Of a DNA stretch of 64,000 nucleotides, positions 263-2,939 are shown one piece after another. The stretch is from contig NZ_JABXIN010000020.1 of NCBI RefSeq assembly GCF_013373065.1, forward strand, positions 16,223 through 80,222, in the 5' to 3' direction. Each line of letters opens with the position of its first letter. The first letter of the stretch is position 1. Both the position numbers and the translations under genes were made by a program. The notes beneath the pieces are model-generated. The model did no database searches. It was not told the origin of the DNA and was given only the letters and a program-made list of their open reading frames with translations. This stretch comes from Algoriphagus sp. GTDB lineage: Bacteria; Bacteroidota; Bacteroidia; Cytophagales; Cyclobacteriaceae.

Positions 263-290
263 AAAAAGGGAGGAAGAGTCCTCCCTTTTT
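263..290 (-). terminator. Rho-independent terminator after the DAHP synthase gene
   Basis: AAAAAGGGAGGA-agag-TCCTCCCTTTTT perfect hairpin with T/A tracts. Confidence 0.75.
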
Positions 291-312: not shown

Positions 313-1413
313 TTAGGCTTTTTTGATCGCATCTGCTTCCCGCAATTGCTTTTCTTGACGCTTGACGGATTCTTCGTGAATGGAATAAAGCAGTTCTTTC
401 ATGAACTTCTCACTTAGATTTTTTGCCATTCCTTTTTGAGTACGACTTTCCATTACATCTTTCCAACGATCAGATTGAAATACAGTCAAGTGATGCTCCC
501 GCTTGTGTTCCCCGATTTGGTCGATTACTGCAAAACGCTCTTGCAAAATATCCAACAATTGATCATCCAAATGATCGACTGCTCTGCGAAGATCTTGCAA
601 TCGCTCATCAGGCCTCATATTTTCCAAAGGCTCCTTGAAGTCGATTGCATTGAGGATTTCCCGTAATGCTTTTGGGGTCACTTGCTGCTTGGCATCGGAC
701 CAGGCATTATCCGGATCATGGTGTGTTTCAATCATCAAGCCGTCCAAACCAAAGTTGATGGCACGTTGAGATACTTCTAAAATTCCATCGCGGCGACCTA
801 CGATATGAGATGGGTCATTGATTACTTCCATTCCGGTCCAAACACGCTTTAGGTGAATAGGCATGGACCAGTTAGGTTTGTTACGGAATCGCTTATCATA
901 CGCATCCGAGAAGCCTCGGTGAATGGCAGCCAATTTGTCTAAGCCGACAGCATGCATCCGTTCCAAAGCCCCAATCCAAAGATCTAAATCGGGATTCATT
1001 GGGTTTTTTACCATCACAGGTACATCCGAACCTCTCAGCGCTTCGGCGATTTCCTGAACAGCAAATGGATTCACGGTTGTTCGAGCCCCAACCCAAATCA
1101 CATCCACACCATGTTTAAGGGCTAATTCTGCATGCGCAGCATTTCCTACTTCAACCGTAATGGGAATATTTAAATGATGGCGGACGATTTCCATCCATTT
1201 CAAGCCATCTTCTCCAATTCCTTCAAAAGACCCAGGTCTTGTCCGTGGTTTCCAGATACCTGCTCGGAAAATTTGAGGAACGGCATTCGCTTCCTTCATA
1301 TCCAAACAGATTTTCTCAATTTGCTCTGGACTTTCTGCTGAGCAAGGACCTGCAATGATCAAAGGGGTAGTCAAGTTTAATCCCCAATCTTTGATTTGTT
1401 TGTGTGTTTTCAT
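313..1413 (-). CDS. bifunctional 3-deoxy-7-phosphoheptulonate synthase / chorismate mutase type II (copy 1)
   Basis: 366 aa; IIAGPCSAESPEQ, FRAGIWKPRTRPGSFEGIG, WVGARTTVNPFAVQEIAEAL, VMVKNPMNPD, plus C-terminal AroQ-type chorismate mutase helix region LRRAVDHLDDQLLDILQERFAVIDQIGEHK. Confidence 0.95.
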   Translation of the reverse strand: MKTHKQIKDWGLNLTTPLIIAGPCSAESPEQIEKICLDMKEANAVPQIFRAGIWKPRTRPGSFEGIGEDGLKWMEIVRHHLNIPITVEVGNAAHAELALKHGVDVIWVGARTTVNPFAVQEIAEALRGSDVPVMVKNPMNPDLDLWIGALERMHAVGLDKLAAIHRGFSDAYDKRFRNKPNWSMPIHLKRVWTGMEVINDPSHIVGRRDGILEVSQRAINFGLDGLMIETHHDPDNAWSDAKQQVTPKALREILNAIDFKEPLENMRPDERLQDLRRAVDHLDDQLLDILQERFAVIDQIGEHKREHHLTVFQSDRWKDVMESRTQKGMAKNLSEKFMKELLYSIHEESVKRQEKQLREADAIKKA

Positions 1414-1431
1414 ACGGCTGAGCGTTTAAAT

Positions 1432-1462
1432 AAAAAAGCCCGACTCTTTCGAATCGGGCTTT
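1432..1462 (-). terminator. attenuator terminator hairpin about 20 nt upstream of the DAHP synthase start codon
   Basis: Transcript AAAGCCCGATTC-gaaa-GAGTCGGGCTTTTTT; U-tract; located between leader ORF stop (1481) and ATG (1413). Confidence 0.8.
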
Positions 1463-1480
1463 GGTGTTGTTTATGTTCTT

Positions 1481-1576
1481 TTAATTTTTGACTGGACAAT
1501 ACACTGCTCCGATTCGATGTTGGCTTCGAAAGTAAAAGTAAAAGAAGGTAAAATAAATCGCGGCTGTGATTAACAT
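1481..1576 (-). CDS. aromatic-rich leader peptide MLITAAIYFTFFYFYFRSQHRIGAVYCPVKN (31 aa), putative attenuator leader
   Basis: Minus-strand ORF ATG at 1576, TAA at 1481-1483; 8 of 9 residues at positions 8-16 are Phe/Tyr; followed by terminator and complementary antiterminator segments. Confidence 0.75.
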   Translation of the reverse strand: MLITAAIYFTFFYFYFRSQHRIGAVYCPVKN

Positions 1577-1607
1577 GCTGTAAATGTAAGTGCATGTTTT
1601 TTAAATG

Positions 1608-1615
1608 CAAAATTA
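1608..1615 (-). promoter_or_regulatory. putative -7 element of a Bacteroidota promoter for the leader/DAHP synthase transcript
   Basis: TAATTTTG on minus strand matches TAnnTTTG; predicted TSS would lie shortly before the leader ATG. A correctly spaced -33 TTG is not clear. Confidence 0.35.
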
Positions 1616-1871: not shown

Positions 1872-2939
1872 CTAATCTCTATCCAGAATTTCCGTTTGTT
1901 TTCGTATGGATTCCTGATGAAGCAAGCTGAAGATTTCAACGATGACTTCTTTATTAATTCCCAATTGCTGGGCCCATTCAGGTCGGGTTTGGAGAATCTC
2001 TTGCCATCGTTCTAATTGGAGGACAGCTACATTGTTCAGCTTTTTGTATTCTCCGATTTTGTCTACCAGTTCCATTCGACGGTGAATTGCCTCTAATAAA
2101 TCATGGTCTGCTTGATCGATTTGTTGTCGAATGTCGTCCAGTTGATTTAAGGCTTCAGACCCTTCAAAGTGAACTTTCCTTGTTTTCAAATGCTGAAGAA
2201 GGATTCCCAAATCTTGTGGTGTTAGTTGTTGGGCTGCATCCGTCCAAGCCTGTTCTGGGTGGATATGGGACTCGATCATCAAACCATCAAAATTCAAGTC
2301 CAATGCTTTTTGAGCGATGATAGGAACCAAATTTCGCTTTCCGGAGATATGGCTGGGGTCATTGATCATCATCAAATCCGGAAAATGCGTCCGAAATTCA
2401 ATGGGGATTTGCCACAAGGGAGAATTGCGGTGAAGCGTATCACGGAAATTGCTGAATCCACGGTGAACGACTGCCAAATCAGTAATCCCAGCTTTCAGGA
2501 ATCGTTCTACAGCTCCAATCCAAAGGCTTAGATCAGGATTTACAGGGTTTTTTACCATCAACGGAATGTCTACTCCTTTGAGGCTTTCTGCAATTTCCTG
2601 TACAGTAAAAGGGTTTACTGTGGATCGAGCGCCTACCCAGAAAATGTCAATTCCGGCATTTAAGGCTTCTTCAACATGTTGGGCGGAAGCTACTTCAACG
2701 GCGAATTGAATCGGGTATTTCTCCTTTAGTTCCTGAATCCAAGGTAGGGCAATGGCTCCTAAGCCTTCAAAGCTTCCTGGCCTGGTTCGCGGTTTCCATA
2801 CCCCGCCTCGAATAATGAAGATTCCTTCTTCGACTAATTTCCCCACCGTTTCTTCTAATTGAGAGGGAGTTTCTATACTGCAAGGGCCTGCAATAATCAG
2901 GGGTTTCTGATGGGAGTTTTTATTGAAAATCGCTTTCAA
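1872..2939 (-). CDS. bifunctional 3-deoxy-7-phosphoheptulonate synthase / chorismate mutase (copy 2)
   Basis: 355 aa; same motifs as copy 1 (IIAGPCSIETPSQ, IRGGVWKPRTRPGSFEG, WVGARSTVNPF, VKNPVNPD) and C-terminal chorismate mutase region. TTG start in ORF call. Confidence 0.93.
   Translation of the reverse strand: MKAIFNKNSHQKPLIIAGPCSIETPSQLEETVGKLVEEGIFIIRGGVWKPRTRPGSFEGLGAIALPWIQELKEKYPIQFAVEVASAQHVEEALNAGIDIFWVGARSTVNPFTVQEIAESLKGVDIPLMVKNPVNPDLSLWIGAVERFLKAGITDLAVVHRGFSNFRDTLHRNSPLWQIPIEFRTHFPDLMMINDPSHISGKRNLVPIIAQKALDLNFDGLMIESHIHPEQAWTDAAQQLTPQDLGILLQHLKTRKVHFEGSEALNQLDDIRQQIDQADHDLLEAIHRRMELVDKIGEYKKLNNVAVLQLERWQEILQTRPEWAQQLGINKEVIVEIFSLLHQESIRKQTEILDRD

Follow-up and report, generated by a model that had tools for sequence, protein, structure and literature searches.

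A predicted phenylalanine/tyrosine attenuator, conserved in the family Cyclobacteriaceae, precedes a DAHP synthase-chorismate mutase gene in Algoriphagus

What does a conserved, unannotated open reading frame (ORF) of 31 codons, rich in phenylalanine and tyrosine, do upstream of a gene for aromatic amino acid synthesis? The ORF lies in a 64,000-nucleotide stretch of Algoriphagus sp. DNA (contig NZ_JABXIN010000020.1, positions 16,223 to 80,222), here called the window, and precedes a gene for a bifunctional DAHP synthase-chorismate mutase (DAHPS-CM). A preliminary description of the sequence interpreted the region as a leader-peptide attenuator. That interpretation accounts for the conserved ORF and is right in substance; the element is real and well supported. 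We consider it very likely that the element attenuates transcription of the DAHPS-CM gene by way of a translating ribosome, with the supply of charged tRNA-Phe and tRNA-Tyr as the signal. The leader and its terminator very probably let DAHPS-CM be made only when Phe or Tyr runs short.

The minus-strand ORF, located by a sequence check of the window, encodes MLITAAIYFTFFYFYFRSQHRIGAVYCPVKN. Eight of the nine residues at leader codons 8 to 16 are Phe or Tyr, exactly as first described, and the ORF contains no Trp codon. It is the only ORF in the whole 64 kb with at least seven aromatic residues in nine; dinucleotide-preserving shuffles of the window (n = 40) gave 0.125 ORFs at 7/9 aromatic residues and none at 8/9. 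The 191-nt leader folds 3.65 standard deviations better than its shuffles, and the leader site is present in a single copy in the 3.6-Mb genome. The protein encoded downstream has DAHP_synth_1 and CM_2 domains and is thus a DAHP synthase fused to a type II chorismate mutase; its gene belongs to the Phe/Tyr pathway and encodes the first enzyme of aromatic amino acid synthesis.

The terminator consists of a 12-bp stem (1462 to 1435) with a 4-nt loop and a U-tract and lies some 18 nt ahead of the DAHPS start codon (ATG at 1413). Within the ORF, TCGAATCGG is exactly complementary to CCGATTCGA, which is part of the terminator 5' arm and loop. Both the hairpin and this 9-nt complementarity had been proposed in the preliminary description, and both are borne out. 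In an alignment of 82 distinct sequences (A2, from which a variant with a two-codon loss, L033, identical to L108, was left out), the terminator (pairing 3:4) is 99.2% paired, against at most 60% in slid controls, and the antiterminator (pairing 2:3) is 98.2% paired, against at most 66%. Compensatory changes, which the preliminary description had suggested seeking among relatives, were found in the terminator, where three pairs have changed on both sides. The antiterminator is almost invariant and therefore has no covariation of its own, although one segment 3 position alternates between A and G, both of which pair with a U in segment 2. Median free energies are about −19.3 kcal/mol for the terminator, −10.0 for 2:3, and −2.4 for 1:2. 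Formation of the antiterminator excludes the terminator, and according to the pairing and the folding model a ribosome stalled on the aromatic run would leave the antiterminator arm free.

We found the leader before the DAHPS-CM orthologue in all 37 Algoriphagus genomes examined. A pattern scan of 85,462 species genomes returned at least 80 loci, and among the matches listed, 72 of 80 have the leader. These 72 represent at least 14 named genera, mostly Cyclobacteriaceae (Algoriphagus, Belliella, Cecembia, Echinicola, Mariniradius, Lunatimonas, Pararhodonellum, Cyclobacterium, Aquiflexum, Cognataquiflexum, Rhodonellum, Mongoliibacter, Pleomorphovibrio, and Litoribacter), together with genomes that carry broader or doubtful labels. 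The other eight loci (L069, L071, L072, L076, L080, L087, L091, and L117) have neither a leader start nor a DAHPS gene behind them and were taken as chance matches. Wherever the sequence extends far enough, a DAHPS-CM orthologue follows the leader; in 15 non-Algoriphagus loci it is 79.6 to 83.8% identical to the window protein. In a sample of other families of the order, the best DAHPS-CM homologues are mostly about 45 to 50% identical, and no such leader was seen in their 600-nt upstream regions.

Selection on the leader is visible at the codon level. The spacing from the ATG to the aromatic run is fixed across the 82 sequences, and the Phe and Tyr codons vary synonymously, changes of their meaning being very rare. 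At codons 11 to 13 and 15, synonymous change is common (pS 0.39 to 0.68) and replacement is rare (pN ≤0.053). This excess indicates that the amino acids are kept and not the RNA alone, which argues for translation of the leader. The preliminary description would have counted it against its reading if close relatives lacked the aromatic run or the complementary segments; both are kept in the 82 sequences from 14 named genera. Chance, or a quirk of Algoriphagus only, is ruled out by these sequences and their synonymous substitutions. The tail YCLxK (codons 25 to 31; 1502-1481, minus strand), which lies beyond the antiterminator arm, is also conserved family-wide at the amino acid level. At its Cys27 and Leu28, synonymous change exceeds replacement, for which RNA structure gives no reason.

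The promoter suggests an unusual start for this transcript. The distance from the first base of a −7 octamer to the leader ATG is 12 nt in 79 of the 82 sequences and 13 nt in the other 3; the octamer scores at least 5 of 6 in all of them. According to PMC6847099 and PMC9723704, the TAnnTTTG octamer of Bacteroidota lies at −12 to −5 from the start of transcription, so transcription is predicted to start on the leader ATG itself. Judging from the promoter, the leader mRNA is probably leaderless. Leaderless mRNAs are a minority class in Bacteroidota, making up about 4 to 6% of mRNAs in two species. In the leaders of other families that are linked to pheA (see below), the octamer is mostly farther from the ATG.

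Table 1. Features of the leader region and the controlled gene (window coordinates)
Feature	Position	Strand	Basis
Promoter element −33, TTTTG	1608..1612	-	TTTG at −38..−29 of leader ATG in 79/82; consensus from PMC6847099
Promoter element −7, TACATTTA (consensus TAnnTTTG)	1581..1588	-	First base 12 nt before leader ATG
Leader peptide ORF, 31 codons, probably leaderless	1481..1576	-	ORF call; codon-level purifying selection in 82 sequences
Candidate protector arm 1', codons 3-5	1563..1568	-	Outer stem with 1507..1502
Regulatory codons 8-16, YFTFFYFYF	1529..1555	-	Codons 9, 14, 15, 16 = F, F, Y, F in 82/82
Segment 1, TTCGA, proposed 1:2 partner	1526..1530	-	−2.4 kcal/mol
Segment 2, antiterminator arm TCGAATCGG, codons 20-23	1509..1517	-	GAATCGG invariant in 82/82
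Candidate protector arm 2', codons 24-25	1502..1507	-	Partner of 1568..1563
Segment 3, CCGATTCGA, common to antiterminator and terminator 5' arm + loop	1449..1457	-	Conserved pairings
Intrinsic terminator (segments 3:4) with U-tract	1430..1462	-	12 bp, −19.3 kcal/mol
Bifunctional DAHP synthase/chorismate mutase, controlled gene	313..1413	-	Pfam PF00793 + PF01817
Intrinsic terminator between DAHPS-CM gene and aroB	263..290	-	Terminator prediction

We propose that transcription would start at or beside the leader ATG and that a ribosome would trail RNA polymerase through the 31-codon leader. With Phe and Tyr plentiful, the ribosome would clear the aromatic codons and cover codons 20 to 23 as the terminator 5' arm emerges; the terminator would then form, and transcription would end before DAHPS-CM. 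With Phe- or Tyr-tRNA scarce, it would stall at codons 8 to 16, covering the upstream protector segments and leaving codons 20 to 23 free to pair with the terminator 5' arm, which would allow readthrough. In a model of the nascent RNA, folded up to the terminator loop with the ribosome footprint blocked, the mean probability of 2:3 was at least 0.88 with the A site at codons 8 to 16 and about zero at codons 20 to 26, so a stalled ribosome would permit antitermination and an advancing one would prevent it. When the complete RNA is folded at equilibrium, the terminator prevails in nearly every ribosome state, which implies that the decision would have to be kinetic. The nascent model still forms 2:3 with no ribosome (0.94) or with a ribosome at the stop codon (0.92), unlike the trp attenuator. 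In these models, formation of 2:3 in these two states is the weakest step of the proposed switch and its main departure from the trp model, and either an outer stem or timing would have to delay it.

Classical attenuation, which the preliminary description claimed with a 1:2, 2:3, 3:4 architecture, is accepted with two amendments. Its aromatic run, antiterminator, and terminator are supported; its 1:2 hairpin is weak, and the promoter makes a leaderless leader mRNA probable. The proposed TTCGA/TCGAA pairing is present, with 5 bp, four of them almost invariant. The fifth pair is lost in 26 sequences; many of these have acquired C-G pairs deeper inside the hairpin, and in one locus (L025) the hairpin is replaced by CTTTCT/AGAAAG. 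At about −2.4 kcal/mol it was ruled too weak in the folding models to compete with 2:3 as the sole 1:2 protector. A second candidate is an outer stem that pairs codons 4 and 5 with codons 24 and 25, a probable structure, which forms first in the nascent fold (median probability 0.84). It has one A-A mismatch in the window itself. Over the 82 sequences it is 89% paired, with A-U replaced by G-C in 13; in other sequences the pairing register is shifted by one codon, and GCGC pairs with GCGC in L027 and L028. When arms are exchanged between divergent leaders, the native outer-stem pairing has a mean advantage of 1.9 kcal/mol and is the stronger in 89%; complementarity is just slightly above that of synonymous shuffles or recoding. 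In these models, the outer stem, or plain masking by the ribosome, is a likelier protector than the TTCGA/TCGAA hairpin.

Masking could even be the whole of the mechanism. There would then be no working 1:2, termination would need a ribosome on about codons 18 to 27, and an untranslated leader would give readthrough, the opposite of trp superattenuation. The disparity between 1:2 and 2:3 (about −2.4 versus −10.0 kcal/mol) and the 2:3 probability of 0.94 without a ribosome fit such a scheme, but the early formation and partial covariation of the outer stem speak against it, as does the strengthening of the inner hairpin to −4.5 to −7.9 kcal/mol in several lineages. We give this version a minority chance. 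It is likewise possible, if doubtful, that Bacteroidota carry a widespread, unnamed set of Phe/Tyr attenuators whose Cyclobacteriaceae branch is leaderless and works by masking only; lost leader translation in that branch would then mean readthrough, not superattenuation.

Two other explanations dispense with attenuation of DAHPS-CM, and we rate both as highly improbable. The ORF might encode a functional microprotein, with a hydrophobic N-terminal segment and a conserved RIGAxYCLxK tail, whose terminator ends its own transcript and for which control of DAHPS is incidental. Conservation of the whole peptide, its mostly fixed length, and the mostly synonymous changes at C27 and L28 are what one would expect of such a protein. 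However, the aromatic run is common to the leaders of other families, whose tails differ, RIG coincides with the antiterminator arm, an aromatic gene accompanies the element in every case, and the invariance of segment 3 is explained only by the antiterminator. Alternatively, the hairpin or a short RNA might act in trans or control DAHPS translation rather than termination. The terminated leader RNA of Sinorhizobium (rnTrpL, PMC7298713) does act in trans, but the hairpin here has a U-tract and is a canonical intrinsic terminator, and it pairs with the leader, not with the DAHPS start region.

In the window's genome, the cluster runs leader-DAHPS-CM, terminator, aroB-aroA-pheA-aminotransferase-tyrA; the leader thus heads the aromatic cluster, and pheA has no leader of its own. 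No leader was found before pheA in Algoriphagus, where aroA directly precedes it. The strong terminator between DAHPS-CM and aroB (minus strand) separates the controlled gene from the rest of the cluster. Directly upstream of the leader is a second DAHPS-CM paralogue (1872-2939, minus strand; 44% identical), which is present in only some Algoriphagus genomes and also in Cecembia, Belliella, Rhodonellum, Mariniradius, and Mongoliibacter. No aromatic leader precedes this paralogue in seven genomes (L056-L062).

Elsewhere in Bacteroidota, DAHPS-CM often lies inside a pheA-aminotransferase-tyrA-DAHPS operon. By eye, 25 of 30 other Bacteroidota genomes have a short Phe/Tyr-rich ORF followed by a terminator ahead of an operon that starts with pheA; five loci (L235, L237, L238, L245, and L252) have no obvious leader there. 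A strict automated scan was positive for 18 of the 30, where about 0.01 would be expected per scanned window; several leaders that are clear by eye escaped it. Examples of the peptides are MNNLFTYFNNFFFYFWYKMRDCYCVNLS, MLQNTWQGFYFYFYFFYKS, and MKRFNTYFWFYYYFFKALPGFERVAVCC, and no Rfam family covers the pheA-linked leaders that were tested. An automated search for 2:3 complementarity was significant in just 10 of 27 pheA leaders, which leaves the individual antiterminators of these leaders as candidates. The pheA-linked leaders and terminators span many Bacteroidota families (L193, L194, L204-L215, and L232-L251). Two loci have tandem Phe/Tyr leader ORFs, each with a terminator-like hairpin, before a single pheA operon (L209 in G095, 1039-1263; L215 in G048, 1008-1233). 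In one genome, a Flavo-1 RNA (RF01705, 78.6 bits; L213, 2346-2423, plus strand) is found upstream of the pheA leader, in antisense orientation to it. Together, the DAHPS-CM and pheA leaders suggest that Phe/Tyr attenuation commonly governs aromatic synthesis in Bacteroidota, and that in one family it acts on the first pathway enzyme rather than on pheA.

No family reached threshold in Rfam scans of the window. Trp_leader (RF00513) scored 16.9 bits against a gathering threshold of 41, and PyrG_leader was far below threshold. The Bacteroid-trp motif (RF01692) is linked to trp attenuation. It had no match to the window in the Rfam scans; PMC2864571 includes it among the candidate cis-regulatory RNAs of Bacteroidetes. 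Naville and Gautheret (2010) stated that, before their Firmicutes cases, no leader-peptide systems were known outside Proteobacteria and Actinobacteria (PMC2965389). For Bacteroidota, a 2021 transcriptome study of F. psychrophilum (PMC9723704) reports strong signs that leader peptides attenuate amino acid operons; in front of pheA it describes a structured 5' element that is conserved and has no Rfam match. By that description, the Flavobacteriaceae element shares the phylum and pathway of the present one, which differs in standing before DAHPS-CM and not pheA; our analysis also found Phe/Tyr leaders before pheA in flavobacteria-like genomes. The preliminary description knew of no described example for this gene family in this lineage. 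In the open-access literature we found none for a DAHPS-CM leader or for Cyclobacteriaceae, but according to PMC9723704, the kind has been reported in flavobacteria.

Among more distant systems, the uORFC-13-1 motif of Acholeplasma aroF (PMC8632094) likewise places a Phe-codon upstream ORF and a terminator before a DAHP synthase gene; it differs in phylum, sequence, and enzyme type, and at least one Phe codon is reported there, against the run of eight aromatic residues here. The leaderless trpL of Sinorhizobium (PMC7298713) is an attenuator RNA that begins with the leader ATG, as the promoter predicts here; it has Trp codons and serves an alphaproteobacterial trp operon. The proteobacterial pheA attenuator (RF01859, Phe_leader) is similar in having a Phe-rich leader ORF, an antiterminator, and a terminator before an aromatic biosynthesis gene. 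It aligns to the leader over its full length but below threshold (26.5 bits, E = 0.11, against a gathering score of 55), and membership was rejected. Unlike RF01859, the present element mixes Phe and Tyr codons, controls DAHPS-CM, probably has a leaderless start, extends its ORF about 26 nt beyond the antiterminator arm, and has a weak 1:2. The probable leaderless start and the candidate protector structures are its special features. The switch is otherwise of a textbook type, conserved family-wide and more widespread than expected, with counterparts across much of Bacteroidota, where it has hardly been described. It lends itself to sharp tests of how amino acid attenuation works in a phylum with no Shine-Dalgarno sequences, a divergent promoter, and almost no catalogued attenuators.
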